Shown here one piece after another: positions 1,456 through 17,705 of a stretch of DNA of 21,547 nt. This DNA is from a virus, in the IMG/VR virus record IMGVR_UViG_3300035670_001389, positions 1-21,547 of that record. One strand, given 5' to 3'. Position numbers and translations under genes: made by a program. Each line of letters begins with the position of its first letter. Position 1 is the first letter of the stretch. The notes under the pieces are model-generated. The model had not been told where the DNA came from. It saw only the letters and a list, made by a program, of their open reading frames with translations, and did not search any database.

Positions 1456-1477
1456 TATAAAAAAATAACTACTATTA
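1456..1477 (+). promoter_or_regulatory. Candidate phage promoter, site A (upstream of portal)
   Basis: In the 65-nt gap before the portal gene, TATAA (1456-1460) is followed after 9 nt by TACTAT (1470-1475). The same pair with the same spacing recurs at 4243 and 15681, and a relaxed copy lies at 7948. The motif ends 27 nt before the ATG. A TTGTAA lies 17 nt before TACTAT (1447-1452), so a bacterial sigma-70-like promoter is an alternative reading for this site only. The promoter role is inferred from recurrence and position. Confidence 0.4.
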
Positions 1478-1504
1478 CATTCAGTTCTATTTTTGGAGAT
1501 TTAA

Positions 1505-3151
1505 ATGGCCGTACGTGACTACCTACCATTCAGGCAACTAGATGCAAAACTTAATTCACAGTTGGAAGCTACGACATTAACTGATGATCAGATCAGGTCG
1601 GTTAATAAGATAATGAAAGTAGCTGCGTTGGCCTTAGGTTATCAGGGTACTACTTATTATTATAATACTAGAACTAACTTTGAACCTTCTCCTTATAATT
1701 TTGATAGGATTATACAAGCTGTAGATACAGATTCCTATGTAAAGCAGGCTATAACTAAATATAAAGAACTCTTTTGGAAAGAAGGGTGGCAAATAGTTGG
1801 AGAAAATCCAGAGGCTGTTGAGTATTTGTATCAAAGAATAGATTTTATGGAAATGGCAATGAAAAGGCCATTTCTTGAATTTTTGATTGAAGTTTCTGAC
1901 CAATTGTTAAAATTTGCTAATGCTTTTGTAGTTAAAGCAAGAGGGGATTTGACAGGTTACTTTCCATCAAAAATTACTCCCGTTAATGCAACGGAAACTT
2001 TAGTCGGATACTATTTGATTCCAACTGAACAAGTTAAAATACTAAGAGACAAATTTAATAGACCTAAATCTTATCAGCAATCGACCGATCCACTAACGTA
2101 TGCCCCTACAGACAGAGATCCTGTTTGGGCCGCTGATAGAGTTATTCATATGCACTTTGATAAAAAACCTGGTAGAGCTTTTGGTACACCATTTTTATCT
2201 AACGTATTAGACGATGTTGTTGCACTTCGTCAAATGGAAGAAGATATACAAAACCTGGTTCATAGAGAGCTGTTTCCATTATATAAATATAGAATAGGAA
2301 CTCCAGAGCAGCCGGCAGAGCCAGATGAAATACTAAAAGCAGCTGCGGAGATAGAAAGTATGAGGACAGAGGGAGGATTAATACTTCCTCATCGACATGA
2401 TATAGAGATTGTAGGTTCAAATAATCAAGCTCTAGATGCAAGTTCTTATATAGACCATTTCAAAGAAAGAGTGGCCGTAGGACTTGGGGTTGCACCTCAT
2501 CATTTGGGTATGATGATGAATGGTGGAAATAGATCTGTTACGGAAAGGTTAGACACTGCGTTATATGATAAGGTCAAACAATATCAAAAAATATTTGCAG
2601 AGATAGTAAGGGTTCATATATTTAATGAGATTTTATTAGAGGGTGGTTTTGACCCAATAGCTACACCATATAGCGATGGATCTTCTGATAGATGTTATTT
2701 TAAATTTAATGAAATTGATGTAGATACTCAAGTTAAAAAAGAAACACATGTAATACAGAAATACGTTAACAATGTAATAACTCTATCAGAAGCAAGAACT
2801 CAGCTAGGGGTAGACCCGGAGGCTGATATGGATGGTCTATTCCAAAACATTCAAGCAGACACTCAAGTGAAAATTCAACAGTCTCAAATGCAGATGAAAT
2901 CAATGACAGATGTACAAAAAGATGGAGATAAGCAGCAATCATCCTCTGGTGGTCGGAGAAATTTGCCCAATAACAGAAGAGGCGTAGGAAATGCCATTCG
3001 TCCTGCTAATCAGCAGGGAAGAAGAACATCTCCCGATATTAAGAGGTCAGATAGCAGTTTATTAAGTGCAGTTGAAAGTTTGCTAGATGAAGAGTATAAT
3101 GTTGTTTATACAGACGAAAATGATAAGGAAATAAATTTAAATGAAGATTAA
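1505..3151 (+). CDS. Portal protein
   Basis: The protein has 548 residues, within the usual size range for phage portals. The portal forms the ring at the unique capsid vertex through which DNA enters and leaves and to which the neck attaches. Family-like features run in order: an N-terminal region with DTDSYVKQAITKYKELFWK (near residue 75), the wing/stem region with RVIHMHFDKKPGRAFGTPFL, the long helix DDVVALRQMEEDIQNLVHRE, then ERVAVGLGVAPHHLGM followed by NRSVTERLD. The last ~90 residues are Gln/Arg/Ser-rich and probably disordered. GGAG at 1495-1498 supports the ATG. Arg codons are 27 of 32 AGA/AGG, unlike the capsid gene. It overlaps the next gene by 11 nt. The call rests on motif reading and on its place before protease and capsid genes. 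Confidence 0.92.
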   Translation: MAVRDYLPFRQLDAKLNSQLEATTLTDDQIRSVNKIMKVAALALGYQGTTYYYNTRTNFEPSPYNFDRIIQAVDTDSYVKQAITKYKELFWKEGWQIVGENPEAVEYLYQRIDFMEMAMKRPFLEFLIEVSDQLLKFANAFVVKARGDLTGYFPSKITPVNATETLVGYYLIPTEQVKILRDKFNRPKSYQQSTDPLTYAPTDRDPVWAADRVIHMHFDKKPGRAFGTPFLSNVLDDVVALRQMEEDIQNLVHRELFPLYKYRIGTPEQPAEPDEILKAAAEIESMRTEGGLILPHRHDIEIVGSNNQALDASSYIDHFKERVAVGLGVAPHHLGMMMNGGNRSVTERLDTALYDKVKQYQKIFAEIVRVHIFNEILLEGGFDPIATPYSDGSSDRCYFKFNEIDVDTQVKKETHVIQKYVNNVITLSEARTQLGVDPEADMDGLFQNIQADTQVKIQQSQMQMKSMTDVQKDGDKQQSSSGGRRNLPNNRRGVGNAIRPANQQGRRTSPDIKRSDSSLLSAVESLLDEEYNVVYTDENDKEINLNED

Positions 3152-3455
3152 ATTAACCAATGAAAATCACAGAACGTACGCCAGAACAGATGATGCATGT
3201 GAAGCATTTAAAAGAGCAGTGGCAAATGGTCAAGCCAGACTTGCACTTGAAATGATGGTTGATATAGTTGATTATATATCAGGTTTAGCAGAGCCATTAA
3301 ACAATGAGGATATTGATATTACAGGTGAAATTACCGCTGAACAAGCCGTCAAAGAGGTTCAAGAAAAGCAACAGGTAAAAACATCAAACAAAAGACAAGC
3401 AGTAACTAAAAATGAAACGCAGGAAGATTCAGAAGGTAAAAAAGAAGAAGAGTGA
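3141..3455 (+). CDS. Small portal-adjacent protein of unknown function
   Basis: This protein has 104 residues. Its ATG lies inside the end of the portal gene (11-nt overlap), and its stop overlaps the GTG start of the next gene (GTGA), so translation is probably coupled on both sides. Residues ~17-50 (DDACEAFKRAVANGQARLAL onward) look like two amphipathic helices. Residues ~60-104 are charged, Lys/Glu/Gln-rich and probably disordered. There is no signal peptide, membrane segment or catalytic motif. No function can be assigned; being stitched to the portal suggests a head-assembly or packaging accessory, which is an inference only. Confidence 0.72.
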   Translation: MKIKLTNENHRTYARTDDACEAFKRAVANGQARLALEMMVDIVDYISGLAEPLNNEDIDITGEITAEQAVKEVQEKQQVKTSNKRQAVTKNETQEDSEGKKEEE

Positions 3456-4219
3456 AACTTGTAATAGGATGCCCCATTTATAAAAGGGATTGGATACTTC
3501 CGCTTTGGATAAAAGCTATTAAATCTCAAGGTTTAAATTTTAAAGATGTTGGTTTTATATTTGAAGTATCACCTGAAGATCATGAAACTTTAAAAATATT
3601 AAACAATTGGAAAGTTTCAGATAAAAGTTTAGGATTATTTGAGATAAATCAAAGAGAAGACATTGCACACTTTGCTCACAGGGATAATGGTAGACAGTGG
3701 ACATTGTCTAAGTATGAAAATATGGTATCTCTAAGAAATTCCATACTTAAGCGTGTTAGGGATATATCTCCAGATTATTATTTCAGTTTAGATTCAGATA
3801 TAATATTATCTAATCCAAATACAATAAGACTTTTGACATCTCATATAGATAATGGAGCTGATGCCGTTAATCCTTTGATGTTTATGACTCCAGTTGGAAC
3901 TCAGTATCCTAGTGTAATGAGCTGGACAGAGTCAGATTCAAACAGAGCATATAGGAAAAGTGAATATCCACTAGGTACATACTTCCAATGCGATGTAATA
4001 ATGGCTGCTAAAATGATGAGTAGAGATGTTTATCAAAACGTTAACTATTCTGTACATAGACAGGGGGAAGACGTTAGTTGGTCTAGGTCATGCAAAGAGA
4101 ATGGTTATAAGCTTTTTTGCGCCTCATACATATATGCGATGCATATAATGTCTCCTTTAGCGCTTGAAGATATAATAAAAAACGGAGATTCTAGAAGTAA
4201 AGTTCTTGAATTAATATAA
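3452..4219 (+). CDS. GT-A fold glycosyltransferase
   Basis: The protein has 255 residues. It begins with MKLVIGCPIYKRDWILPLW, the first beta strand and loop of a GT-A nucleotide-sugar-binding fold. The metal/nucleotide-binding DxD is seen as LDSDI (Asp114, Asp116), preceded by the family-like MVSLRNSIL (residues 91-99). Near the C-terminus GEDVSW, then YKLFC and HIM, resemble the acceptor-side ED motif and a late His. Such enzymes move a sugar from a nucleotide donor to an acceptor; the sugar and acceptor cannot be read from sequence. GTG is the start (GTGA overlap with the previous gene), with GAAGAAG just upstream. It sits between portal and protease, which points to a virion protein as a possible acceptor. 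No membrane segment is seen, so cytoplasmic action is likely. Confidence 0.85.
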   Translation: MKLVIGCPIYKRDWILPLWIKAIKSQGLNFKDVGFIFEVSPEDHETLKILNNWKVSDKSLGLFEINQREDIAHFAHRDNGRQWTLSKYENMVSLRNSILKRVRDISPDYYFSLDSDIILSNPNTIRLLTSHIDNGADAVNPLMFMTPVGTQYPSVMSWTESDSNRAYRKSEYPLGTYFQCDVIMAAKMMSRDVYQNVNYSVHRQGEDVSWSRSCKENGYKLFCASYIYAMHIMSPLALEDIIKNGDSRSKVLELI

Positions 4220-4234
4220 ATTTGTATAAATTTG
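4215..4234 (+). repeat. Exact tandem 10-bp repeat at the end of the glycosyltransferase gene
   Basis: TATAAATTTG occurs twice head to tail, and the first copy contains the glycosyltransferase stop codon (4217-4219). One copy length is close to one DNA helical turn. It lies 8 nt before candidate promoter site B. A regulatory role is possible but unproven, and in such AT-rich sequence chance is also plausible. Confidence 0.6.
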
Positions 4235-4242
4235 TTCAATGT

Positions 4243-4264
4243 TATAAAAATAAATTTACTATAT
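4243..4264 (+). promoter_or_regulatory. Candidate phage promoter, site B (upstream of protease-scaffold)
   Basis: TATAA (4243-4247), 9 nt, then TACTAT (4257-4262), ending 30 nt before the chosen ATG at 4295. The spacing is identical to sites at 1456 and 15681. The TTACTATAT core is also identical to the site before the sheath gene. It would drive the protease-scaffold, decoration-like and capsid genes. The role is inferred from recurrence. Confidence 0.42.
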
Positions 4265-4294
4265 GTGTACAATACAACCAAAAAGGTGTGCGAT

Positions 4295-5986
4295 ATGTCA
4301 ATAGATTTTGTTGAAAGTTTCACTGTTCAACTTCCTGACTTCAAGGATTCAAATATAGATTTTTCTGAATCTTTTAACTCAAAGCATGGTCTAATAATAG
4401 AGGTCGCAGCAATTCATGAAGGCCTCACGGCTAATTATAATAACTATTCAGCTGATGAGCTAGCGGCAGCACTAGAGTCATGGGTATCTCCTTATCCTAA
4501 GCCAATAATTTTAAATCACGATCTTAATACTGAGCCAATTGGCAGAGTCATGGCCGCTAAAATGGATAAAGAAGAAGATGGTTCTAGTTTTGTTAGGCTT
4601 CAGATAGCAATTACGGATCCCGTTGCAGCACAGAAAGTTCTAGATAAAAGATATCTCACAGGTTCAGTTGGTGGAAGAGCAGGTAAAGCAGTCTGCAGTA
4701 TAAGTGGAGAAGATTTAGCTCAGGAAACAGATTCTGGAAGACCTAGACTACCTAAGTATAAAAGAGGTAAGGTTTACAAAGGTAAACTGGCATATATAGA
4801 TATGCAAGATATTTCATTTAAGGAATACTCTTTTGTAAATCAACCGGCAGATCAAAAATCAGGAGTAAGAAGTACTTCTGTAAAAGATGGTTCTGCAGCA
4901 GTTGCTGACTCAGAAAATTGGGTAGCAAAAAGCGCAGCATTCGTTCTCTCTATGGACACTGAAGATATAGTTTCTGTTCAAGAAAATGAATCAATACTGA
5001 AAGGTATGAGAAAGAAAGAGTCAAGACCGGCCTACCTTCAGTTAAAAGGCGCTTTTCTAACTGCTTTAGCTGCACAAGAGATGGAAAGTGACATTAATGA
5101 AGATGATTCATTACTATCTTGTGAAGATTCCGAAAAAGTAAAATCTGAGGAGAATTCTATAATGGATGATGTTACCAAAGAGGAAGACATTCTAGCTGTG
5201 GCTACTGGCCTAAGTGAGGATTTGTCTAGCATCACATCTTCCACCTCTGAAGAAGAGGTGACCGAAGAGTCAAATGGTGCTGAAGAAGATGTGCAAGTAT
5301 CAGAAGAGGAAGAAGCTGTCGCAGATTCCGAAGTTTCTGAGGAAACATCTCAAGAAGGGTCAGAAACCGTAAATGAAGAAACGGTTGAAGAAGATAAGGC
5401 CCAGGAAAGTTCTGCTGACGATTCAGAAGAGGCGGATGTACAAAACGTAGATTCCGAAAATGCTGGAAAGCCAGAAGAATCATCATCTGGAAAAGTTGAA
5501 ATAAAAGATGATGAAGTTCAAGAGGAAGCTGATCAAGACGGTGATCTCATTACAAATGAAAGTAGTGATGAGCAAGATATTGAGCAGTTGAAGGCAGAAA
5601 AAGCCCTTCTTGAAGAGCAGATCTCAACATTAAAGGTTGAGAATGCAAAGCTCAAAGGTGCATTACACATGACTCTCGTTGAAAGAGTTGTTGACACCAA
5701 GATCGCTTTAGGTATGGAGAGTGTTGAAGATCGCGAATCACTGATAGGTGAACATTCGTCACGTACAGCTTCTTCTTTGGCAGATAGTCTTAGAGATTTA
5801 GCTAAGACACCTGCTATTAGGTCTAAACTCCCCTCCCTACCAGAAGTGATGTCTGAAGCTGAGGTTGTAGCGGAAGATAATGTTCTTACTGTAGATTCTG
5901 AGAAGAGTGAAAACAATTCCCTCTCTCCACAGGAGAAGTTCGAACAGCTTTTTGTTGACACATTAATGGGCAGACGTAAACTCTGA
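4295..5986 (+). CDS. Prohead maturation protease fused to scaffold
   Basis: The protein has 563 residues from the ATG at 4295, which has AAAAGG 8 nt upstream; an in-frame ATG at 4232 lacks such a site and would add an atypical leader. Residues ~30-200 look like a phage serine prohead protease. KPIILNHD carries the likely catalytic His75, IGRV follows, and YLTGSVGG carries the likely Ser124. From ~267 to ~428 the chain is extremely Glu/Ser/Asp-rich and probably disordered. Residues ~428-460 form a coiled coil (IEQLKAEKALLEEQISTLK). A basic tail ends GRRKL. Protease plus scaffold in one chain is known in other tailed phages: the scaffold part templates the prohead and the protease then removes it. 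It sits two genes before the capsid gene. A possible internal start for free scaffold is listed separately. Confidence 0.85.
   Translation: MSIDFVESFTVQLPDFKDSNIDFSESFNSKHGLIIEVAAIHEGLTANYNNYSADELAAALESWVSPYPKPIILNHDLNTEPIGRVMAAKMDKEEDGSSFVRLQIAITDPVAAQKVLDKRYLTGSVGGRAGKAVCSISGEDLAQETDSGRPRLPKYKRGKVYKGKLAYIDMQDISFKEYSFVNQPADQKSGVRSTSVKDGSAAVADSENWVAKSAAFVLSMDTEDIVSVQENESILKGMRKKESRPAYLQLKGAFLTALAAQEMESDINEDDSLLSCEDSEKVKSEENSIMDDVTKEEDILAVATGLSEDLSSITSSTSEEEVTEESNGAEEDVQVSEEEEAVADSEVSEETSQEGSETVNEETVEEDKAQESSADDSEEADVQNVDSENAGKPEESSSGKVEIKDDEVQEEADQDGDLITNESSDEQDIEQLKAEKALLEEQISTLKVENAKLKGALHMTLVERVVDTKIALGMESVEDRESLIGEHSSRTASSLADSLRDLAKTPAIRSKLPSLPEVMSEAEVVAEDNVLTVDSEKSENNSLSPQEKFEQLFVDTLMGRRKL
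5162..5986 (+). CDS. Possible nested scaffold protein from an internal start
   Basis: Inside the protease-scaffold gene, GAGGAG (5147-5152) lies 9 nt before an in-frame ATG at 5162. Starting there gives 274 residues: the acidic region, coiled coil and basic tail without the protease. Phage lambda makes its scaffold Nu3 from an internal start in the protease gene C, so the arrangement has precedent. However, GAGGAG also simply encodes Glu-Glu in a Glu-rich stretch, so the site may be accidental. Confidence 0.35.
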   Translation: MDDVTKEEDILAVATGLSEDLSSITSSTSEEEVTEESNGAEEDVQVSEEEEAVADSEVSEETSQEGSETVNEETVEEDKAQESSADDSEEADVQNVDSENAGKPEESSSGKVEIKDDEVQEEADQDGDLITNESSDEQDIEQLKAEKALLEEQISTLKVENAKLKGALHMTLVERVVDTKIALGMESVEDRESLIGEHSSRTASSLADSLRDLAKTPAIRSKLPSLPEVMSEAEVVAEDNVLTVDSEKSENNSLSPQEKFEQLFVDTLMGRRKL

Positions 5987-6005
5987 TTATTATAAGGAGA
6001 ATTAA

Positions 6006-6776
6006 ATGAGTTTAGCAAAATTTCGCAAGGTACATAGCAAGACCGGTGCAGGTCGTTTCGTAGTTTCTGAGGGTATTGCCCCCAGCGCCTACCTGCTGCC
6101 AGATCAGGGTCTTCCTACTTGGTATTATGACAGTGAGGATGATCGATTTGAGATTGTTATCACCAAAGGTACCATACTTTCAGTCGTTGCTGATGCAAAT
6201 GGCGACGCAAGAATCGTTCCCGCTAACGGTACGGCTTCAGCTGTAACTTGGGGCGATACAATGAGCGGCTGGGATCCACTTGATGGAGCTACCCCCAGCA
6301 CCACAACCGGTTCAACTGATGAAGTTACTGTTCCTGCGCGTTCAGTACCAATCGGTTGCGCTCAGTATGACCTCTACAGACCCTTTGACAAGGGGACCTC
6401 ACAGGGTGCTGGTTTCATCACCCATGGTTATGTAGAGTACCCGATGGTTGAGGGTCTAAATGATGCCCTTGCTATTGGTGATGCAATCCGTGCGGACCAT
6501 ATGGGCCGCCCAGTGAAGCTCACCGCTGCAGAGCAGTTCAACAGCAATGCTGTTTATGCTCACCTGCAGGTTGGCAAGGTTATCGAAGTTGAGAAGTTTG
6601 CTACAAACTTCGATGATGGCCTTCTCAGCTACATGCAGCTTCCATCTGATCCAGGTGCACTAAAGACCGTCTACGAGCTTACTCGTGATGGAGATTATAA
6701 GGGCAAGCTCGGTATTAGAGCTAACCTGGATGTTAATAACGTTGTTGGCGCATTCCGTGTCAACTTAACACTCTGA
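6006..6776 (+). CDS. Probable capsid decoration-type structural protein
   Basis: The protein has 256 residues, with AAGGAG (5994-5999) 6 nt before the ATG. It lies between protease-scaffold and major capsid genes, where many tailed phages encode a decoration or head-stabilising protein. It is mostly beta-type, with no signal or membrane segment and a short basic N-terminus (KFRKVHSKTGAGR). Codon use resembles the capsid gene (8 of 11 Arg codons are CGN) and differs from the portal, suggesting high expression and so a high-copy virion part. It ends with the tandem stop TGATAA. I do not recognise a named family; the role comes from position and codon use. Alternatives are a minor head protein or a head-fibre base. 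Confidence 0.68.
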   Translation: MSLAKFRKVHSKTGAGRFVVSEGIAPSAYLLPDQGLPTWYYDSEDDRFEIVITKGTILSVVADANGDARIVPANGTASAVTWGDTMSGWDPLDGATPSTTTGSTDEVTVPARSVPIGCAQYDLYRPFDKGTSQGAGFITHGYVEYPMVEGLNDALAIGDAIRADHMGRPVKLTAAEQFNSNAVYAHLQVGKVIEVEKFATNFDDGLLSYMQLPSDPGALKTVYELTRDGDYKGKLGIRANLDVNNVVGAFRVNLTL

Positions 6777-6809
6777 TAAAACAATATACACAGGAGGAAA
6801 AATCCTAAG

Positions 6810-7868
6810 ATGAGTAAGACAATCCAAGAGCTCCTCTCGGGTCTCCCAGCTTGGGAGGCTGCACTGACTGAGGACGGACACATCGATGAAGAGAATAGAG
6901 TAACAATTAAGGAAGCATTTGCATCTCCTGATGCAGCTGCGTTGTTCCCTAAGGTTCTCTCTCGCACACTGAGGGAAGCAGCAGAGCCACAGCTACTTGT
7001 GACTCCACTACTTTCAACAGTTCGCCTCGGCAAGGGGCGCTCATTGGAGTTTCCAGCAGTCAATGCAATCCAAGCTGCCGAAATCCCTGAGGGTCAAGAG
7101 TACCCAGAGCAAGCACTCGCCTTTGCAAAGCAGGTAGAGGGCAAGGTCTCAAAGAAGGGCGTTAAGCTCGCCTTCACCGAAGAAGTCGTTGCTGACTCCC
7201 TTTGGGACATTGTTGGTCTACACGTTCGTGCAGCAGGTCGTGCCATGGCTCGCCTTAAGGAGCAAATTGCTCTGAGCCGCTTTAAGGATGCAGCTACTGT
7301 CGTCTTTGATAACGATGACGTTGCTTATGATAACACTTCAGGTTTGGATATTGATGGCGCAGCCAACAATACCGTGACATGGGATGATATCATTGACATG
7401 GCTGCTGTTCTTATGGCTGAAAATCACATTCCAACAGACTTCATGCTTCACCCATTAATGTGGTCGGTGTTCCTAAAGGATGCCATCTTCCACGCTGGCG
7501 GGGCTGCCTCTGGAGTCAATCAAAGCTGGGGTTACCGTCCACAGTCAGCTGAGGGCGCACTCAATACCACAGCTCCAATGGGTCTGAACGTAATTGTTTC
7601 ACCATTTGTTAGCTTCACCGCTAAGAATGGCGCAACACCTGCTAAGTCAGACCTTTTCCTCATCGATCGCAATGAGGTTGGGACACTCCTGGTTAAAGAT
7701 GACATGAGCACGGATCAATTTGACGATCCTTCACGTGACATTCGCTCACTCAAGATGAAAGAGCGCTATGATATCGTGATGCTTGGTGACGGTGAGGGTA
7801 TAACCGTTGCTAAGAACGTCAGCCTTGCTCGCAACTACGAGGTTATGGTCACAAACGAGGCCAGCTGA
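6810..7868 (+). CDS. Major capsid protein (HK97-type fold)
   Basis: The protein has 352 residues. It looks like an HK97-fold major capsid protein: a helical N-terminal arm (1-60), an E-loop-like part with SRTLREAAEPQLL and GRSLEFPAVN, a long charged spine helix (SLWDIVGLHVRAAGRAMARL, 130-149), an A-domain with FMLHPLMWSVFLKDAIF, and a C-terminal strand region with RDIRSLKMKERYDIVML. The perfect ribosome site AGGAGG (6792-6797) is 12 nt from the ATG, longer than usual. Codon use is strongly biased: 13 of 15 Arg codons are CGC/CGT and 16 of 18 Lys codons are AAG, opposite to the portal gene. It ends with TGATAA and is followed by a strong terminator. All this fits the most abundant virion protein. 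Confidence 0.92.
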   Translation: MSKTIQELLSGLPAWEAALTEDGHIDEENRVTIKEAFASPDAAALFPKVLSRTLREAAEPQLLVTPLLSTVRLGKGRSLEFPAVNAIQAAEIPEGQEYPEQALAFAKQVEGKVSKKGVKLAFTEEVVADSLWDIVGLHVRAAGRAMARLKEQIALSRFKDAATVVFDNDDVAYDNTSGLDIDGAANNTVTWDDIIDMAAVLMAENHIPTDFMLHPLMWSVFLKDAIFHAGGAASGVNQSWGYRPQSAEGALNTTAPMGLNVIVSPFVSFTAKNGATPAKSDLFLIDRNEVGTLLVKDDMSTDQFDDPSRDIRSLKMKERYDIVMLGDGEGITVAKNVSLARNYEVMVTNEAS

Positions 7869-7873
7869 TAAAA

Positions 7874-7908
7874 CCTTAGGGTTGTTATAGTTACGAATAC
7901 CCTAAAGG
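7874..7908 (+). other. Upstream hairpin in the capsid gene 3' region
   Basis: CCTTAGGG (7874-7881) can pair with CCCTAAAGG (7900-7908) with one bulged A; the core TTAGGG/CCCTAA is perfect. It precedes the terminator hairpin. CCCTA (7900-7904) could instead pair with TAGGG (7910-7914), which belongs to the terminator stem, so the two structures can compete. Confidence 0.5.
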
Positions 7909-7950
7909 CTAGGGGGCGGTGGAGAAATCTGCCGCCCCCTAGTTTTATAT
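7909..7950 (+). terminator. Strong Rho-independent terminator after the major capsid gene
   Basis: A perfect 11-bp G+C-rich inverted repeat (CTAGGGGGCGG at 7909-7919, CCGCCCCCTAG at 7932-7942) encloses a 12-nt loop and is followed by TTTTATAT. Flanking GG and AA can extend the stem with the T run. It lies 41 nt after the capsid stop, so it should end most head-gene transcription. Confidence 0.9.
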
Positions 7951-7972
7951 AAGTTTTTGATTGTTACTATTA
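7948..7972 (+). promoter_or_regulatory. Candidate phage promoter, site C (relaxed spacing)
   Basis: TATAA (7948-7952) and TACTAT (7965-7970) occur as in sites A, B and D, but 12 rather than 9 nt apart; TATAAGTT is shared with site D. It follows the terminator directly and ends 31 nt before the GTG start at 8004. The downstream genes need a restart of transcription here, which supports a promoter. Confidence 0.33.
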
Positions 7973-8003
7973 ATGTATAAGATATCTTTTGGAGCGTGAT
8001 TAA

Positions 8004-8777
8004 GTGGCTTTTACAACTTTAGTTAACAATTTTATTGTTGGAGTAAATAGTTTACAAATAAAATTTGTTCGTTCAGTTCAAATAAGCTCTTTGTTAGACG
8101 AAAACTTCGTTTTAACAAAAGCTTCCCAACCATCTTCTCCTATTAGTTCTCCATTTAGAGATATTAATACCTTAATTCATTACAACTCCATAAGTCGTGC
8201 GCTTACACTTTTTTGGAATGTAGTTTTAGAAGCAAATACTGAGTATGTTGTAACAATTAGTAACCTAAAAGATGGCGCAGGCTTAACTATAGATTCTGAC
8301 AGTTTTAGTTTTACAACACCAGAAGAATCTGCTACTCCAAGTAGTTTAATTTCAACAGGAACTGTAATTGAAGAAATATTAATACAGGATAAATCTGTAA
8401 AAGTAGATTTTGATACCGGTTACCAAATAATAGCAAAAAATCCTGAATTTTATATAAAAGAAGTTCAGCCATCTAATGGATCATTTTATATAGATAATTC
8501 AGAAAATAATGGAAGAGTTACGATAACTTTTAATCAAAGGCCTGCTAGCAATTTCTTAACTTCAAAATATTTCAAGGTCCAAAGAAAACTAATGCAGAGA
8601 GCTCCATCAAGATGGGAAAATGTACCTGCACAAGTGTCTATTCATTCATGGAAGCCTGATGTTTTTATAGACTTTCCATCAGATGATACAACTCCTGTTT
8701 ACTATGTCGATGATAAGACGTATTATCAAACAGGATATAAATATAGAATTATTGTATCTTCAGAGGTAGGGGTTTAA
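8004..8777 (+). CDS. Virion surface protein with bacterial Ig-like (Big_5-type) domains
   Basis: The protein has 257 residues. GTG is the start, with GGAG (7991-7994) 9 nt upstream; the residues after it (MAFTT) are typical of a start. The segment LEANTEYVVTISNLKDGAG followed by SFSFTT matches the Big_5/SbsA Ig-like pattern. A second such domain seems to begin near VQPSNGSFYI, with GRVTITFNQRP. Ig-like domains decorate many phage capsids and tails and bind weakly to cell-surface sugars. It is the first gene after the capsid terminator and overlaps the next ATG by 1 nt (TAATG). Its exact place on the virion is not known; head decoration or fibre base are the main options. Confidence 0.72.
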   Translation: MAFTTLVNNFIVGVNSLQIKFVRSVQISSLLDENFVLTKASQPSSPISSPFRDINTLIHYNSISRALTLFWNVVLEANTEYVVTISNLKDGAGLTIDSDSFSFTTPEESATPSSLISTGTVIEEILIQDKSVKVDFDTGYQIIAKNPEFYIKEVQPSNGSFYIDNSENNGRVTITFNQRPASNFLTSKYFKVQRKLMQRAPSRWENVPAQVSIHSWKPDVFIDFPSDDTTPVYYVDDKTYYQTGYKYRIIVSSEVGV

Positions 8778-9187
8778 TGGCTAATCAATTGTATACTAGT
8801 ATAAAAGAAGATTTTTTAGGTGGTTCAATTAATTTATCAGCAGTAAATTTAAAGGTTGCGCTTGTTACATCGGGTTACTCTTTGGATATAGATAACCATA
8901 GATATCTGTCAGACATAAACCCGCTAAATATAGCAGCTTCTAGTAATATTTTAGAAAATGTTACAATTACAGATGGAGTCTTAGACGCAGAAAATGAGAC
9001 AATAGAAGATTATGGAACTAGTGGTTTTAGTTACTTAATTATTTATGAGTCAACTGGATCCAGTTCGACTTCAAGACTAATAGCATATATAGATACAGCA
9101 GACGGATTACCAGTACAAGGTACTAGTTCTCCAGTATCCGTTACTATACAATGGAGTGACTTAATAACTAAGATATTTAGTTTATAA
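8777..9187 (+). CDS. Small structural protein of a widespread phage family
   Basis: The protein has 136 residues. It starts MANQLYTSIKEDFLGGSINL and continues with VKVALVT-like strands, HRYLSDI, a long TITDGVLDAENETI strand pair, YLIIYESTG and a closing LITKIFSL. I recognise this layout from many tailed phages, where it is found beside capsid, fibre or neck genes and is called a structural or hypothetical protein; no biochemical role is established. It is translationally coupled to the Ig-like gene (TAATG). There are no catalytic residues, signal peptide or membrane segments. The fold is probably all-beta. Confidence 0.78.
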   Translation: MANQLYTSIKEDFLGGSINLSAVNLKVALVTSGYSLDIDNHRYLSDINPLNIAASSNILENVTITDGVLDAENETIEDYGTSGFSYLIIYESTGSSSTSRLIAYIDTADGLPVQGTSSPVSVTIQWSDLITKIFSL

Positions 9188-9197
9188 GGGAGTTTAC

Positions 9198-9536
9198 ATG
9201 GCTACAAATTATCCTAATTCTTTAGACATATTGGAAAATCCAACATCTACTGATAGGCTTAACTCTACGAGTGTTCCACACCATAAGCAACACGCTGATG
9301 CCAATGATGCTATCGAAGCAATACAAACGGTTTTAGGTGTAAATCCTGCTGGTAGTCATTTAACAGTCAAAGATAGAATAATTGCAGCTGAGTCTAACAT
9401 TTCTAATCAATCCGTTTTAAACGGCTTAAGTGACGTTACTATCTCTGTAGCTACAGTTGGTGATGTTTTGCGCTACACTGGCTCTGAATGGGTTAATTAT
9501 TCTGAAGAAAATCTCGTTGATGGAGGAAACTTTTAA
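9198..9536 (+). CDS. Small fibre-associated structural protein
   Basis: The protein has 112 residues, with GGGAG in the 10-nt gap before the ATG. The segment [19 protein letters not shown] then [19 protein letters not shown] is characteristic of a short family seen beside fibre genes in aquatic phages. The C-terminal half carries LSDVTIS and [14 protein letters not shown], a motif common at the joins of phage fibre proteins. It is followed after 2 nt by the long fibre gene and probably belongs to the same appendage, perhaps as an adaptor; that role is inferred. Confidence 0.77.
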
Positions 9537-9538
9537 AC

Positions 9539-11407
9539 ATGGCTAATACTATAAGAATTAAGAGAAGGTCTAGTGGTGACGCTGGCGCACCAGGTAGTCT
9601 AGAGAACGCAGAACTAGCTTTTAATGAAGTTGATGACGTTCTTTATTATGGAGAAGGAACTGGTGGAGCAGGCGGAACAGCTACCACTATATTGGCCATA
9701 GGTGGTTCTGGAGCATTTGTTACCAAGTCAACAGCGCAGACAATAACTGGCGATAAAACTTTTAGCGGTACAGTCTCTTTAGGGAGTTCTGCAACTGCAA
9801 CCACTCAGTTAGCCGGTGACAATTCCACTAAAGTAGCTACCACAGCTTACGTAGCTTCTGCCGTAACAGCAGCAACATACTCGTTTACTTTAGCCGCAGA
9901 CTCTGGAACTTCTCAAGAAGTTAGCGATGAAGAAACAGTAACCATATCTGGTGGAACTGGTCTCTCATCAGAAGTTGCAACAAATGCGGGAAATAATACC
10001 CTCACGATTAATCTTGACAATACCGCAGTAACAGCTGGTAGCTATGGATCATCAACAGAGATTCCAACTTTTACTGTGGATGAACAAGGTAGATTAACAG
10101 CAGCTGGTACGGCCTCTGTAGCTACTGCACTATCTATAGCTGATAACAACACCAATACTGATACAGTAAACTTGTTGACAGACACCCTTACCTTTGCTGA
10201 AGGTGAAGGGATAGATGTTACTGTTTCCAATAACACCGTTACAATTTCCGGAGAAGATGCAACTTCGAGCAATAAGGGTATCGCTTCCTTTTCTTCTAGC
10301 GATTTCACGGTGTCATCTGGAGCTGTTTCCATATCAAATGTAAACCTTGGAACCCAGACAACCGGAAACTATATAGCTACGATAGCAGGTACCACTAATC
10401 AGGTTTCAGTTACCGGCTCTGGTTCTGAGACTTCTGCTGTGACACTGTCCCTTCCACAGGATATCCATAGCGGTGCAAGTCCACAGTTTGTAGACATTAC
10501 TTTAACCGGAGATGCGGCAGTAAATGGTGGGGATATAACTACTACTTCTACAACAGGAAATATATTTACATCTAACGCTACCACCATTAATCTTGGCACA
10601 GTTTCGGCTACAGCCGTAAATATTGGTTCATCAACATCTACCGTTACAGTTAATGATGATTTAGTTGTTACGGGCGACCTTACTGTTAATGGTACAACAA
10701 CCACTATAAATTCAACCACATTGTCAGTTGATGATAAGAATATAGAATTGGCTAGTACTGCCTCCCCAACGGACGCATCTGCCGACGGAGCTGGTATAAC
10801 AGTTAAGGGAGACACTGACAAAACTTTTAACTGGGTTGATGCGACAGACGCTTGGACATCCTCAGAGCACATGAACCTTGTCTCTGGTAAGGAATACTAC
10901 ATTGGTGGCACTAGCGTTCTCAATGCAACAACACTTGGTTCTGGCGTAACTACATCTAGCCTTACTTCAGTTGGAACTATTGGTTCTGGAACATGGCAGG
11001 GTACAATAGTAAGCCCTACATACGGCGGCACTGGTGTAAATAATGGTTCAAGTACAATAACCATTGGTGGTAATTTAACCTTCTCTGGAGCATTTACCAC
11101 AACTATAACAGCTACAGGAAATACTTCGGTAACACTTCCTACAACTGGCACTCTAGCTACATTAACTAATTCAGAAACAATAAGTAATAAGACAATAACC
11201 AATTCAAGCATTGGGACACTGGATCCATCAACTGCAGCTTTTACAACTTTGTCTGCTAACAGCAGTGTAACATTCACTGCCAATACCGCATCTACAGCAT
11301 ACACAAATGGTACACTAGTGGTTACTGGTGGTGTGGGAATTTCGGGCAGCCTTTATGGTAATAGCTCAACTCTAAGCGGATTTGTCATTGACGGTGGTAC
11401 ATACTAA
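9539..11407 (+). CDS. Repeat-rich fibre protein lacking a C-terminal chaperone
   Basis: The protein has 622 residues, with GGAGG (9523-9527) upstream. The N-terminus ([20 protein letters not shown], then [17 protein letters not shown]) is the usual attachment end of aquatic-phage fibres. [18 protein letters not shown] follows, a lambda-Stf-like motif. Then come long Ser/Thr/Gly beta repeats, [36 protein letters not shown] and [18 protein letters not shown]. These pieces are shared by many cyanophage and pelagiphage fibres. The chain stops at FVIDGGTY with no S74 chaperone or obvious receptor tip, so the next gene may supply the tip or the fibre may be short. Its position between capsid and neck genes suggests a head fibre, although a tail fibre cannot be excluded. 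It ends with TAATAA. Confidence 0.88.
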
Positions 11408-11424
11408 TAAAGTAGGTTTAAGTC

Positions 11425-11796
11425 ATGCTGTATAACGAATTGATAGAGTATGACGAGCCGTATTTTCAATACAATGGAGTTAGAATTGTAGAACCTAATA
11501 CATTTGGTCCTACATCGGTTATATCTAATTTGGATATAAGAAAAGTCGTATTACTTCATCCAGAAAGTATTACTTCAACATTAATTTTTGTAGCTGCAAA
11601 TAAAGTTATTGTTGGAACTGGTAAAGAGCAAGTAACCCAGTCTACCGCTTCGTTAACGTTTGAGACTTATGATAGTGGTTATATAGCTTTTAATGTTGAA
11701 AAACGGGAAGCTTTTGCAGTTTCTTCGGCAGAAACTATAATACTAGAATATAATTCAGCTGGCACTGCAGATGTTACTATAATACAAACATCTTAG
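11425..11796 (+). CDS. Beta-rich protein of unknown function, possible fibre tip
   Basis: The protein has 123 residues, with a weak AGTAGG ribosome site 8 nt before the ATG. After a short Tyr-rich start (LYNELIEYDEPYFQYNG) it is dominated by alternating hydrophobic strands with no Cys and no catalytic motif. It lies 17 nt after the fibre gene, whose own C-terminus lacks a tip domain, so a role as separate tip or cap is possible. Alternatively it belongs with the neck genes that follow. I do not recognise the family. Confidence 0.7.
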   Translation: MLYNELIEYDEPYFQYNGVRIVEPNTFGPTSVISNLDIRKVVLLHPESITSTLIFVAANKVIVGTGKEQVTQSTASLTFETYDSGYIAFNVEKREAFAVSSAETIILEYNSAGTADVTIIQTS

Positions 11797-11808
11797 AATA
11801 GAGGAATT

Positions 11809-12708
11809 ATGTCAACTCAAAAAGTTCTAGTAAATGACACAGTTAGAATAAGGGTCAGATTCGTAGATGTAGACCCTTCAACTGGTGAAGAGGTGGACCT
11901 ATCTCCTGTTTCTGTAAATGTAGAAATAAAAAACTCATCTGGATCAATAGTAGTTTCAGAGGATGCGGATCCCCAAACTCCATCTTCTTTCTATTATGAT
12001 TTCATACCAGATGCAGCTGGTGAATATAATGTAAAGTTTTCTGGAATACTCCAGAATGGCAATACTGTTATTGTTCAACAAAAATTGTACGTTAGTACCA
12101 CCACAGAAACTTATCAACCAGTAGTTACTTTAGGTGCCGATGAATATATAGTATTTGCGGCAGATGTTGATCCTTTATATATAGATCCGGACGAATTAAC
12201 ACCTTATTTTCCCGATGCATCAATGTTGGAAATTGGTGAAATAGTTCATGTTTATTCCGAAGAGGTAAAGAAGCTCTATAAGCTTAGAGATGATCAAGAT
12301 GTTACGCAGCTACCCACTATAGTTTATGACTATATAAAAGCTGCTACCGCGTGTGATTTAACTAGAACATACGGATTTGGTGGAGATGACGAAATGTCTA
12401 TAACTCTTGGAGATCTTTCAATTAATAATAGAAATGTACCAAGAAATACGGTCACAAGAGATAACGCTTCGACATGGTGTCAGATAGCAGCTGCGTTAAG
12501 GAAAGAATTAATTTCGGCAAAAGTCGGACCAAGATCCATACTTCCTAGAGGGGTTCCAAATGAAAAAATTGGTACATCTGGAGGAGTTAGAGATCCTGAC
12601 ACGGGTAAGATAATATATCTTTCAGATAGGGAATTATATGGTCCAGGTAGGCAGCCTCCTAGAGATTCAGACCAGATGCCAGAAAGAGACCTAAGAAGCT
12701 ATGATTAA
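11809..12708 (+). CDS. Probable head-tail adaptor with N-terminal Ig-like domain
   Basis: The protein has 299 residues, with AGAGG before the ATG. Residues 1-~100 form an Ig-like beta sandwich (VNDTVRIRVRFVDVDPSTGE, later GEYNVKFSG and IVQQKLYVS). Residues ~150-245 are largely helical (YDYIKAATACDLTRTYGF, then NASTWCQIAAALRKELISA), resembling the helical adaptor ring that binds the portal in many phages. The C-terminus is Pro/Arg/Asp-rich and probably disordered. It is the first gene of a neck block and overlaps the next by 8 nt. The adaptor call comes from helical content and gene order; the Ig-like front is unusual for a small adaptor. Confidence 0.66.
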   Translation: MSTQKVLVNDTVRIRVRFVDVDPSTGEEVDLSPVSVNVEIKNSSGSIVVSEDADPQTPSSFYYDFIPDAAGEYNVKFSGILQNGNTVIVQQKLYVSTTTETYQPVVTLGADEYIVFAADVDPLYIDPDELTPYFPDASMLEIGEIVHVYSEEVKKLYKLRDDQDVTQLPTIVYDYIKAATACDLTRTYGFGGDDEMSITLGDLSINNRNVPRNTVTRDNASTWCQIAAALRKELISAKVGPRSILPRGVPNEKIGTSGGVRDPDTGKIIYLSDRELYGPGRQPPRDSDQMPERDLRSYD

Positions 12709-13072
12709 CGTAAAGAGAACATTTAGGCAGATACTTAAGCAATGGGGTCATGATGTCTATGTCCAAAGAATTCAGTCTAATGGAAATTATTCAGATAAAC
12801 TTGAAAGAATCACAGCTAGGCAATTAGGTCAGAGTGGGTCTATTAATGCCAATTCTGTCCAAGAGCTAGATGCTGGTATCTTTACTAAATATGATGCTGT
12901 TTATTATTTCGAAAGTACCGTTAACCCAAAAGAGGGAGACAGGATTTACGAATCTATATCTGTTAAAATAAATAAAAATTCTACTAGATTTAGAATAGAT
13001 ACAGCCACTCCAATTAGGGGTAGAATGGGCAAGGTTGACTATTGGATAGTTGGCGCTACAAGAGAAGGCTAA
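12701..13072 (+). CDS. Probable head-closure (stopper) protein
   Basis: The protein has 123 residues. The ATG lies inside the stop region of the adaptor gene (8-nt overlap) with no clear ribosome site, so coupled translation is likely. The N-terminal RTFRQILKQWGHDVYVQR and the later PKEGDRIYES, then GKVDYWIVGATREG, fit the small beta-barrel stopper proteins that follow the adaptor in many phages and close the capsid after packaging. Size and order agree with that family. It could instead be a second connector ring. Confidence 0.65.
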   Translation: MINVKRTFRQILKQWGHDVYVQRIQSNGNYSDKLERITARQLGQSGSINANSVQELDAGIFTKYDAVYYFESTVNPKEGDRIYESISVKINKNSTRFRIDTATPIRGRMGKVDYWIVGATREG

Positions 13073-13073
13073 T

Positions 13074-14666
13074 ATGATTACTCTGTATAATAATCAAAGG
13101 GCTAACTTTAAGTTTGTTTTTTCTTCAGATTTAAATGTTTATAATCCATTATCTTTAGCTACACCTAAAGAGATTATAATTAGCATATTCAGAGGCGATG
13201 GTACATCTGGACCAGTTATAGATGGTCCATATTCCTCTACCCAGCAGGACTCTGAGGTAAATAAAGACTCTTATATATCGGACAATGTATATGATGAGAT
13301 AGTTTTTACATATAGAATTCCTATGTCCTTATATGAGGGAATCTATACTGTTCAGGCTTCCGTTGAGGGTCCTGATGGTTCTATTTTAAGGAACTATTCA
13401 TCTTTTCAGGTTGTTAATACTGAATCATATTTATCTCCAGTTTCTCTGGCAAATAATACTAGCTCAATAGTTAATTATAGGCCTGAATATAAGCAGCTGG
13501 CTAGGACTAATCACAGCACACTACTATTAATAGGGCATGCCGATGGGGTTGAGTTAAATCAACCATTTAGGGTTAAAACCATACAGCACGCTATTGATAC
13601 TCTTAAGGCTGATTTTAATTCACCTCTTTTGAGAGGTATTCTTAACGCATATGCGGCCGGAGCAACTGATATAGTCGCCTGCGCTGCCGCTCCCATGTAT
13701 GAGTATATTGATGATTTTAATTACAGACTTCGGTCTGGAAATGTTTTTGATTACCAAGGTAACTTGACAAATAAAACATTTTACCAAAGATACTACGAAA
13801 GGTTGGAGCAAACGTATTTTGCAATACGTGAACTAGATTTCATAGATATTATTGCTCCTCTTCAGGCTTCCATAATTAGAACCGGAGACTATGATTTCAT
13901 AACACAACTCGCTCAATATTGTTATGACTTTAATAATGAAACTGGATTTGTTCAGATGGGTGTAATCGGATCTAGGACAAACGGATTTAATTCTTCTGAT
14001 ATTGAATTAATGGAGCAGAATTCAGTACTGGTAAATAAGCTTACTACGTATTCAAACGGATTTATCTCATCCGATATAGGTAGATTTGTTGTTCCGGTTT
14101 ATGGTGAATGTTTATATAGTCATCCTCAAATAAGGTACACCTATACTGACTCAGTTTGTGCGTCATATGCAGCAATGCTTGCCTCTAACGGGTTAGGTAG
14201 TTCTTTAATAAGGAAGAGAATTCCAGGGGCAGTTTCGGTATTTGGATCAGATCTTTCTCACTCACAGTATATGAGATTAGAAGATCTTGGTGTAAATACC
14301 ATATATAGAGGTAAAAAAACTAAGAGGAATATAGATTTTGAAGTTTACGTTACAAATGATTACACTTTAGCTAGGACTGGAAATACGCTGCATAAAGCTC
14401 AGCAAATGAGGCTAATGGCAAGACTCATAAATGAGACTAAAGTATATGCCTCCCAAGCTATTGGTAGGCTATCTTACGATTCTACTAGTGAGAAGATAAA
14501 AAAGATGCTAGACGGCTTGTTGTCTGATGGTGCAATAAATGATTATTCTTTTAATGTAACTGTTGACTCTCTAAACATAGGTCATCTAATATTCGATATA
14601 GAAGTTCTGTCTTCTCTAGGTCTAAAGAAAATAGATTTCTCCCTATCAGCAGGACCAGGAGCATAA
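13074..14666 (+). CDS. Sheath-family protein with N-terminal Ig-like domain
   Basis: From the ATG at 13074 the protein has 530 residues. AAGG (13065-13068) lies 5 nt upstream; a TTG at 13050 would overlap the stopper gene more and adds an atypical leader. Residues 1-~115 look Ig-like (EGIYTVQASVEGPDGS). The rest resembles contractile-tail sheath proteins: AAGATDIVACAAAPM, YFAIRELDFIDIIAPLQA, a central ASYAAMLASNGLG core, and a C-terminal domain with EKIKKMLDGLLSDGAINDY and HLIFDIEVLSSLGLKKI. The larger-scale sheath is the separate gene at 15743. AGA/AGG and AT-rich codons suggest lower expression, so this may form a neck- or end-proximal ring. That role is inferred. Confidence 0.78.
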   Translation: MITLYNNQRANFKFVFSSDLNVYNPLSLATPKEIIISIFRGDGTSGPVIDGPYSSTQQDSEVNKDSYISDNVYDEIVFTYRIPMSLYEGIYTVQASVEGPDGSILRNYSSFQVVNTESYLSPVSLANNTSSIVNYRPEYKQLARTNHSTLLLIGHADGVELNQPFRVKTIQHAIDTLKADFNSPLLRGILNAYAAGATDIVACAAAPMYEYIDDFNYRLRSGNVFDYQGNLTNKTFYQRYYERLEQTYFAIRELDFIDIIAPLQASIIRTGDYDFITQLAQYCYDFNNETGFVQMGVIGSRTNGFNSSDIELMEQNSVLVNKLTTYSNGFISSDIGRFVVPVYGECLYSHPQIRYTYTDSVCASYAAMLASNGLGSSLIRKRIPGAVSVFGSDLSHSQYMRLEDLGVNTIYRGKKTKRNIDFEVYVTNDYTLARTGNTLHKAQQMRLMARLINETKVYASQAIGRLSYDSTSEKIKKMLDGLLSDGAINDYSFNVTVDSLNIGHLIFDIEVLSSLGLKKIDFSLSAGPGA

Positions 14667-14667
14667 T

Positions 14668-15624
14668 ATGGTAATGAGATATAATACTTTTCCTAATTTT
14701 TCTCAATGGAACAGGCTTGGTAAGAATCCATTGGTTGCGCCTGGATTTACTAGGACTAATTCCGAGGGAGTAGATGAAATATATTCTGGCTCTTTAAATT
14801 ATCTTGAATTTGTTCAAGTGGTAAAGAAAATTTGGGAAGAGTTACATCCAGAAATATTGATTATACCCTATAATCCAAATAGGGATGTGAGTACTTCTTT
14901 TGATGAAACAGTAACTGCAATTTCTTCTTCAAATGTTGCGGGTTTGACACCTTCTGAATATCCACCAATAACTATTGGATATTCTTTAGAGCTTAGGAAG
15001 CCTCACACTATGGACCCGAAGCCAAGAATGAGGCATCAATTAAATAATTCTATCAATGAAAATATAACAATATATGGTCAGAAATTTCAAAATATAGTCA
15101 GTTTTACAGTAATGGCCGAAGTGGGTACCTTTTTTGGCTCCGATAACCAGCAGTCGTTTGACGATGCAGACGCATCCGTAGTTGTAGATCAAGTAATAGA
15201 AGAATTTGAGAATTTTATGGTTGAATATACACCAATATTTAAGGCCATGGGTGCGTCGGACTTAGTATATGCCAGAAGGGTGTCTGATTCGGATATCAAT
15301 AAAGATGGAAAAGACATTCTTCAGAGGCAAGTTATGTATATGTTAACGACAGAGAAAACTTTTGCTATCTCTAATAGAAGAATACAAAAAATAGCTGTAG
15401 ATACCAGAGCTTGGTTGAAGGATATATATTCTGCCACACCATCTTACCAGGTTAATGAAGTAGGTTCCGAGGAGCTGATCAGAGAGTCTGAAACCTACGC
15501 TAGGGTTGAAAGAATGGATAATGACGGATTCCCTGTCTATGAGATAATGGAAGACACAGATTTAGTTCTTAGGGATCATTTTCAAATGTCTACACCAGAC
15601 GAAAATTCTACTCCAAATCAATAA
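14668..15624 (+). CDS. Candidate tail terminator / tail completion protein
   Basis: The protein has 318 residues. AGGA (14657-14660) sits 7 nt before the ATG, and a second in-frame ATG lies at 14674. The middle part has ITIGYSLELRKP, NITIYGQKFQNIVSFTVMAE, then VDQVIEEFENFMVEYTPIFK, and QVMYMLTTEKTFAI. The strand-strand-long-helix order and the place just before the sheath gene resemble tail terminator proteins that cap tube and sheath at the neck. The N-terminus mentions a long helix (YLEFVQVVKKIWEELHPE). The C-terminal ~60 residues are acidic. The call is moderate; another neck component is possible. Confidence 0.58.
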   Translation: MVMRYNTFPNFSQWNRLGKNPLVAPGFTRTNSEGVDEIYSGSLNYLEFVQVVKKIWEELHPEILIIPYNPNRDVSTSFDETVTAISSSNVAGLTPSEYPPITIGYSLELRKPHTMDPKPRMRHQLNNSINENITIYGQKFQNIVSFTVMAEVGTFFGSDNQQSFDDADASVVVDQVIEEFENFMVEYTPIFKAMGASDLVYARRVSDSDINKDGKDILQRQVMYMLTTEKTFAISNRRIQKIAVDTRAWLKDIYSATPSYQVNEVGSEELIRESETYARVERMDNDGFPVYEIMEDTDLVLRDHFQMSTPDENSTPNQ

Positions 15625-15680
15625 TTATCAATATTTGAATATATATATTTTTTTATTGAGAAATTATGGATGGTTGTTTT

Positions 15681-15702
15681 TATAAGTTCCGTGTTACTAT
15701 AT
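15681..15702 (+). promoter_or_regulatory. Candidate phage promoter, site D (upstream of sheath)
   Basis: In the 118-nt gap before the sheath gene, TATAA (15681-15685) is followed after 9 nt by TACTAT (15695-15700). Spacing equals sites A and B; TATAAGTT is shared with site C and TTACTATAT with site B. It ends 40 nt before the ATG. The rest of the gap is very AT-rich, including the palindrome AATATATATATT (15638-15649); no strong terminator is seen in it. Confidence 0.42.
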
Positions 15703-15742: not shown

Positions 15743-16990
15743 ATGGCTATACCTGGAGTAACTACAACAATTAGAGATCGTTTTTATACGGTTTCAAGAA
15801 GTGATGCGCCAACCGGACCTAGAGTTGTTGCCATCGCTAAGCGCAGTACAGCAGACGGCACTGGTAACGTACAGGATCTTGACGTAGTTAGAGCATTAAA
15901 TGAAGCAGACGTTATAACTGCTTTTGGTGATGGCTCAGACTTACATAGAGCATTCGTTGAGCTCGTTACAGCCGGTGCTGAAAGAGTCTTCTTAGTCCCC
16001 TTACCAAGTGACACCGTTTTCACACATAATACTGGATCATTGACTTCAGTTACGCAAGGTGGCGGTGATATTTTCAGCGCTGCATTCGAAGCAGCCGAAG
16101 CTGCAATTCCCGATATTATTTTAGCATGGGGTAGAGGTGGTCATCCAGATGATTGGGAGGATCCAGCTACACCAAGCAACGACGCAGAATTTGGTTTTCA
16201 TGCCGATAATACATCAACTGTAAGCTCTAACTGGGCTTATAAAGTTGGTGCTGCCTGCAAAGCTATATCAGAAAATACTAATCCGTGTGTAGGAGTTATT
16301 GGTATAAAGCCTTACTACGGAGTTTCTGAGAGAATGACACCCGGTCAAACGTCTACTCATTTAGCACTAACAAACTTACCAGACAGAGATGGTAGTGACC
16401 TTTTCAAATCTGTTGGTTCATATGTGGCAGTTGTTGCTGGTGAAGTTAAGCCAATAAACTATGGTTCAGGTCTCATAGATTTTGGCTATTCAAACGGTGC
16501 TGCATCATTTGCTGCCACCATGAGCACATTGCCTTCATATAGTTCATTGGTAAACAAGCCACTCTATAATGTAGAGTCAATCCGCTATTCTCCCACAAGA
16601 ACTCAGCAAGCCTCTTTGTCTGAGAAGGGAGTTAACCCTGTTATCATAAACTTTAACAAGGTTGCTGTGTTTGGTGAGAGTCTCACTTTTGCACAAAGCA
16701 CATCGGATTACACTCGTTTGACAACTAAGAGAATAATAGATGATGCTACTGGTATAGTTAGACAGGTTTGTCAAAAATTTATCGGTATGCCATCAAACGT
16801 TCAAACCAGAAATTCAATGGAAACAGCTATTACCTCTGGTTTGCGCGGCATGCAGTTACGTGGCGCTATATTGTCAAGTGATTTCACAGTAACCTACGTG
16901 CCGAATGAGAATAAGGCTATAGTTGACCTTGTTCTAACACCTGCATTCGAGCTTAAGAATATAGAAGTTCGAGTAGCAATTAACCTGTGA
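15743..16990 (+). CDS. Major tail sheath protein
   Basis: The protein has 415 residues. The start MAIPGVTTTIRDRF and the segment AGAERVFLVPLP are typical of contractile-tail sheath subunits. The middle holds GVIGIKPYYGVSERMTPG. The C-terminal domain has TTKRIIDDATGIVRQVCQKF, GMQLRGAILSSDFTVTY and IVDLVLTPAFELKNIEVRV, the strands that link neighbouring subunits in sheath structures. Sheath surrounds the tube and contracts to drive it through the cell envelope. GGAGG (15726-15730) lies 12 nt before the ATG, the same long spacing as in the capsid gene. Codon use is intermediate between portal and capsid genes. It ends with TGATAA and is followed by the tube gene after 37 nt. Confidence 0.92.
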   Translation: MAIPGVTTTIRDRFYTVSRSDAPTGPRVVAIAKRSTADGTGNVQDLDVVRALNEADVITAFGDGSDLHRAFVELVTAGAERVFLVPLPSDTVFTHNTGSLTSVTQGGGDIFSAAFEAAEAAIPDIILAWGRGGHPDDWEDPATPSNDAEFGFHADNTSTVSSNWAYKVGAACKAISENTNPCVGVIGIKPYYGVSERMTPGQTSTHLALTNLPDRDGSDLFKSVGSYVAVVAGEVKPINYGSGLIDFGYSNGAASFAATMSTLPSYSSLVNKPLYNVESIRYSPTRTQQASLSEKGVNPVIINFNKVAVFGESLTFAQSTSDYTRLTTKRIIDDATGIVRQVCQKFIGMPSNVQTRNSMETAITSGLRGMQLRGAILSSDFTVTYVPNENKAIVDLVLTPAFELKNIEVRVAINL

Positions 16991-17027: not shown

Positions 17028-17705
17028 ATGGCTGAAGGAGATAATGTTCAAAAGTATTTGAACACGTATACAACATTTTCTGGTGCAGATATCGTTGCCA
17101 CTTTTGGTGGCGTTGAAATTGGTGCTCTTTCCGGTATCACTTTCTCAGTAACCAGAGAAAAAGCTCCCATATACACTATGGGTTCACCAAATCCTCGTTC
17201 TTTCTCAAGAGGTAAAAGAGGTATCGCTGGTTCGTTAATATTTACTGTTTTTGACAGACCAGCTCTTTACAAGATGATAGCTGAAAACCATGACACCAAT
17301 AGAAGTCAATGGTTCTACACTAGAAGTCATAACACAATTCCCGGTGACAGCAACCATTCAAGAGGTATCGTCAACGAGGAAGCTTATGGAACAGGTGTAG
17401 CTAGAAAGCTTCCATACTACGCGGATCAAATTCCGCCTTTTGATATCACTATTACCTTTGCTAATGAGTACGGTCAGGCAGCAGTTCGCTCTATTTATGG
17501 AGTGGAACTTCTAAACGAAGGCTCCGGTGCGTCTATGGATGACATTGTTATTGAGGAAACAATGACGTATGTCGCCAGAGAGCTTGGGCCAATGTTTACG
17601 CTTGATATTGATAATTCTGCTGGAGTAGATAACGCAGGTCTTATTAATGAAAGATTTACAACAACCATTAATAATGGTCAGGGTTCAATCTATCAAGACG
17701 TATAA
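17028..17705 (+). CDS. Tail tube protein (first of three paralogs)
   Basis: The protein has 225 residues, with TGGAGGG upstream. The position directly after the sheath gene is where the tube is usually encoded. Visible features are FSGADIVATFGG (17-28), REKAPIYTMG (43-52), GIAGSLIFTVF (65-75), IPPFDITITFANEYG and VARELGPM, all strand-rich as expected for a tube subunit that stacks in hexameric rings. The same motif series recurs in the next two genes, so this is the simplest and shortest member. A perfect hairpin follows its stop. I infer major tube because of order, compactness and codon use nearer to sheath than to the neighbours. Confidence 0.8.
   Translation: MAEGDNVQKYLNTYTTFSGADIVATFGGVEIGALSGITFSVTREKAPIYTMGSPNPRSFSRGKRGIAGSLIFTVFDRPALYKMIAENHDTNRSQWFYTRSHNTIPGDSNHSRGIVNEEAYGTGVARKLPYYADQIPPFDITITFANEYGQAAVRSIYGVELLNEGSGASMDDIVIEETMTYVARELGPMFTLDIDNSAGVDNAGLINERFTTTINNGQGSIYQDV

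Follow-up and report, generated by a model that had tools for sequence, protein, structure and literature searches.

In a large and widespread family of uncultured freshwater jumbo phages, the general late signal is the hexamer TACTAT alone, one six-letter start signal placed about 30 letters before the late genes. The stretch of DNA analysed here, hereafter the window, is a 21,547-nt piece of a large myophage genome, taken from its structural region (IMG/VR record IMGVR_UViG_3300035670_001389). Portal, capsid and tube-like proteins are encoded there, as are two proteins that resemble sheath. We consider it about 75% probable that TACTAT forms the -10 of a late promoter class specific to the phage, read by a phage sigma factor with the host RNA polymerase core in a two-step cascade. 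We infer its activity as a promoter in vivo, its reading by this sigma factor and its late timing from sequence comparison, and "late" is used throughout as a label of gene content, namely structural genes. The original prediction had described a two-part motif, TATAA-N9-TACTAT, in the longer gene gaps; the promoter class that it recognised is real in substance, but its anatomy was mis-drawn.

IMG/VR contains many relatives of the window, up to 194 kb in length; the complete sequences of nine contigs were examined, and family-wide hexamer counts were made on ten. Portal relatives were not found in genome_contigs. The nearest recorded phages are distant, as judged by the portal protein: Bacillus phage KLEB27-3 (33%), Moorella phage MTATph1 (36%) and Acinetobacter phage ME3 (27%), the last with structural genes annotated as related to those of 0305phi8-36. 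The two sheath-like proteins of the window phage are encoded at 13050-14666 and 15743-16990; the tube-like proteins include at least two that are related to each other (PHROG 9206), at 17028-17705 and 17791-18579.

TACTAT before the late genes

In the ten contigs no hexamer is more over-represented than TACTAT 27-36 nt before start codons (87 occurrences versus 11 expected), and in gaps it is again the most enriched, with 62 copies versus 9.9 expected from its coding rate; because the contigs are related, these counts are not independent, which a class-weighted logo allows for in part. A sharp peak lies 30-34 nt before the start codon across 1394 called genes, individual start codons being approximate because the genes were called with a simple ORF caller. 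The hexamer is rarer on the non-late strand (17/182 gaps versus 82/291), and the gaps of the window itself hold four copies against 0.35 expected from dinucleotide shuffles. The first 50 kb of KLEB27-3 and of MTATph1 lack TACTAT where promoters would lie, which suggests that the motif is family-specific, and we found no publication in the open-access literature that describes TACTAT as a phage late promoter.

Five sites lie in the window, all on the plus strand. The proposed -10 of the portal promoter (1470-1475) stands 29 nt upstream of the portal start at 1505, and TACTAT occurs 25-35 nt before portal in all 39 distinct relatives. The proposed -10 of the protease-scaffold promoter (4257-4262) lies 32 nt before the ATG at 4295 and is matched in 35/35 distinct relatives. 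That of the sheath promoter (15695-15700) has a longer leader of 42 nt and recurs in 20/20 distinct relatives and in 23/23 of another relative set. The proposed post-capsid -10 (7965-7970) precedes a 257-aa gene at 8004, as it does in 26 of 28 distinct relatives and in 10/10 long contigs. The fifth, at 11775-11780, 28 nt before a 299-aa gene at 11809, lies within the final codons of the ORF before it (11425-11796). It is found in 23/27 distinct relatives, was absent in 3 of the 19 relatives of another comparison, and keeps its distance unchanged in L108, L112 and L122, three relatives in which that ORF has no detected homologue. About a dozen further TACTAT copies had been counted inside genes, correctly but incompletely: the copy at 11775, which had been missed as a site, is a conserved member of the same class.

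Genes expected to lie inside operons lack the signal among distinct relatives: TACTAT precedes none of 31 capsid, 22 tube, 26 622-aa and 35 256-aa genes. Between the capsid gene and the 7965 site lies an intrinsic terminator hairpin (7905-7946, plus strand) with a 19-bp stem, a folding energy of -35.1 kcal/mol and a z score of -6.9, which bears out the earlier division of the region into transcription units behind a terminator near 7909. Because this strong terminator directly precedes it, a new transcript must begin at the 7965 site. Terminator-like T-runs are enriched upstream of TACTAT sites more generally.

Elsewhere in the family, TACTAT is found ahead of a gene for a collagen-repeat protein and ahead of one for an Ig-like protein, which itself lies just upstream of a VanY/peptidoglycan-binding gene. 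In one contig (G001, L131) two TACTAT sites diverge, at 132438 on the minus strand and 132495 on the plus strand; of the two proteins that they precede, one has 812 aa and weakly matches a lectin domain, the other has 1394 aa and collagen repeats.

Promoter anatomy, the phage sigma factor and a proposed cascade

Aligned over 34 gene classes, the sites yield a logo with the core T-TACTAT-[AT]. On this evidence TACTAT itself would occupy -12 to -7 as the -10 element, the reverse of the originally preferred reading, in which TATAA was the -10; TATAA is absent at most sites and drifts to forms such as CATAA or TAGAA, whereas TACTAT is fixed. With TACTAT at -12 to -7, +1 is predicted to fall seven bases past the hexamer. 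There A stands in 68% of the 34 gene classes (23/34 versus a 35% background, about four standard deviations by our own arithmetic), and no other column beyond the core is as informative; this is where the -10 reading places +1, but we noticed it in the finished logo. Transcription would thus start at an A about seven bases downstream of TACTAT, giving a leader of some 20-30 nt, longer at sheath. As a -35 partner, neither a TTG peak nor a common element was seen at the expected distance, and none appears in the 34-class logo, in agreement with the original remark that -35 boxes are not consistently present. The late promoter would then consist of a TACTAT -10 with no conserved -35 box.

Relatives of the window phage encode a protein of 280-290 aa (about 288 aa) with sigma-factor homology, matching PHROG families annotated as RNA polymerase sigma factor at E values of 1e-7 to 1e-9. 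The first member passed the Pfam cut-off for the Sigma70_r4_2 domain, and 16/16 matched it; the Sigma70_r2 match was barely detectable (E 0.02-0.08). An AlphaFold model of the protein is of low confidence (pLDDT 56); its fold matches in the PDB are almost all sigma factors, none of them below E 0.001, and a PDB sequence search gave weak helix-turn-helix matches only. The gene lies downstream of a RuvC-like resolvase gene, in one operon: RuvC adjoins it in 80 of 80 loci and an exonuclease does so too in 76. It was found in seven of the ten long contigs searched, the other three being possibly incomplete; the window contig carries no copy, and its sigma factor is assigned from the relatives. In one relative (G004, L148/L149, about 139662-140466) the sigma gene is split near 140291 by a frame break that is either real or an assembly error.

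The promoter of the RuvC-sigma operon is, judged by its sequence, host-type: 27 of 28 distinct relatives have TATAAT upstream of the operon, and most have TTG at about -35 distance; none of the 28 has TACTAT there. Searches for an RNA polymerase with multisubunit profiles, RdRP/YonO-type profiles and a DFDGD motif scan found none. The RdRP/YonO-type profile had no match in ten contigs, which may be incomplete, and its control was positive only in B. subtilis; a search for a T7-type polymerase, run without a working positive control, likewise had no match.

From this co-occurrence and exclusion we infer that TACTAT is read by this sigma factor, and the involvement of a phage factor, offered earlier as one option, is probably correct. 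In the first step of the proposed cascade, the host sigma factor would transcribe the RuvC-sigma operon from its host-type promoter (TTG, TATAAT); in the second, the phage sigma factor would direct the host RNA polymerase core to the TACTAT late promoters and so turn on the head, fibre and tail units. The reader is most likely the ~288-aa protein, with its region-4 helix-turn-helix and diverged region 2. The presence of region 4 leads one to expect a -35 box, and that none is seen counts against the cascade. One way to accommodate this, possible but on balance doubtful, is that the promoter is a single -10 hexamer with no -35 and that region 4 serves another contact, either with a co-activator or with upstream elements such as GTTATAAAAA and GTTGTTTTTATAA[GC]TT.

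Alternative readings and gene-specific upstream elements

The alternative that survives best, though we regard it as unlikely, is that the host primary sigma factor reads TACTAT as a variant -10, possibly helped by a phage activator or by modification of the RNA polymerase. The bases T-12, A-11 and T-7 are the most important of a -10 element, and all three are kept in TACTAT, so that a host sigma factor could read it weakly. Late promoters reported as SigA-like in Ma-LMM01 provide a precedent (PMC5780444). The 18 one-base variants of TACTAT speak otherwise: at 27-36 nt before starts only TAATAT is clearly raised, and more weakly (30 versus 11), whereas nearly all the others, TACAAT included, show no excess at promoter distance. 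The specificity of TACTAT is therefore sharp and differs from that of TATAAT. Moreover, the TATAAT class coexists with it in the same phages, accompanied by a -35-like TTG at the sigma operon that TACTAT sites lack, and the phages encode a sigma factor. A conventional sigma-70/A promoter (TTGACA, 16-18 nt, TATAAT) was considered for these sites and rejected, as they show no enrichment of TTG at the -35 distance and carry C and T in place of T and A at -10 and -9; a sigma-70 consensus scan of the window returned 68 matches versus 64, at chance level. The proposal of a phage-specific promoter class for late genes is upheld by TACTAT, which is kept before structural genes and differs from host promoters.

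We consider it very improbable that TATAA is the -10 and TACTAT the first transcribed part, or that both are contacted as one two-part site. The arrangement itself was correctly described, with exact TATAA-N9-TACTAT at 1456-1475, 4243-4262 and 15681-15700 and an N12 form at 7948-7970, and the three exact copies exceed chance (mean 0.05, maximum 2, in 300 dinucleotide shuffles of the window), although a scan of the window allowing two mismatches gave 24 copies versus 18.5, which is chance level. Among relatives, TACTAT recurs before the same genes, whereas TATAA at N9 is fixed only at sheath (20/20 distinct relatives, 23/23 in another set) and mostly kept at scaffold (22/35, the remaining 13 reading, for example, CATAA, TAGAA or TATTA). 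It occurs in 0/39 relatives at portal and is likewise missing from every relative at the 257-aa and 299-aa genes, and across the 34-class logo it is found in more than one relative only for the scaffold and sheath classes. The two-part motif as a single class does not hold for this reason and was rejected; TACTAT is the invariant part. The portal TATAA of the window (1456-1460, plus strand) is probably at N9 by coincidence, as the nearest TATAA in portal relatives is mostly 15-17 nt from TACTAT, with a mode of N17.

The sheath and scaffold promoters nevertheless have conserved sequence of their own upstream. On the plus strand, TATAA at 4243-4247 lies within GTTATAAAAA before the scaffold promoter and TATAA at 15681-15685 within GTTGTTTTTATAA[GC]TT before the sheath promoter, and both are candidate gene-specific upstream elements. 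A similar decamer, [GC]TTATAAAAA, stands before portal and scaffold (e.g. window 4241-4250), separated from TACTAT in relatives by mostly N15-17 at portal and N9 at scaffold. Upstream of TACTAT the enriched words are the terminator-like T-runs, TTATAAAA, which stems from portal and scaffold, and a CAGCAGGG repeat belonging to three small genes. Three small-gene TACTAT sites, at G004 143048, near 11967 in G012 and near 77202 in G002, are preceded by CAGCAGGGTAA.

That TACTAT is a translational or RNA leader element held at a near-fixed distance from the start codon is hardly credible: the sharp 30-34 nt peak would suit such a role, yet distances vary between sheath sites (42-48 nt) and the others (24-36 nt), the 7965 site lies behind a strong terminator and T-runs are enriched before sites, genes expected inside operons also need translation and lack TACTAT, and an A stands at the predicted start site.

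Relation to known phage promoter systems

The family appears to display the features of a phage sigma factor with a cognate late promoter class, namely sigma homology in relatives and a distinct motif before structural genes. The T4 sigma factor gp55 is generally said to be without a region-4 helix-turn-helix, whereas the family sigma has one. As in T4, a single short -10 motif without a -35 precedes late genes in a phage with its own sigma factor; the T4 late promoters read by gp55, however, carry TATAAATA at -13 to -6 (PMC1524935), which is not found here, the core being TACTAT. The promoters of the phiEco32 and 7-11 sigma factors are likewise low in copy number, sharply conserved and placed before structural genes, with the phage sigma first made from host-type promoters, but their core is TGATGT (PMC4331800), and the sigma gene of 7-11 also lies behind phage promoters, unlike the RuvC-sigma operon, upstream of which no TACTAT was seen. 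In Bacillus phage 0305phi8-36, to whose structural genes those of the relative ME3 are annotated as homologous, 21-bp candidate phage-specific promoters similarly occupy noncoding gaps, in a genome with no recognised sigma factors and a putative RNA polymerase (PMC2147016); here a sigma factor is present and no RdRP/YonO-type polymerase was found in the ten contigs.

We found no published transcription data for this jumbo-phage family. Because TACTAT is short and conserved and tolerates little variation, late units can be recognised in fragments. The result is a late-gene map that can be read directly, with a sigma gene named as the candidate reader, for an uncultured jumbo-phage family. Few pairs of phage sigma factor and promoter are known, and this family would bring a further -10 specificity to them.
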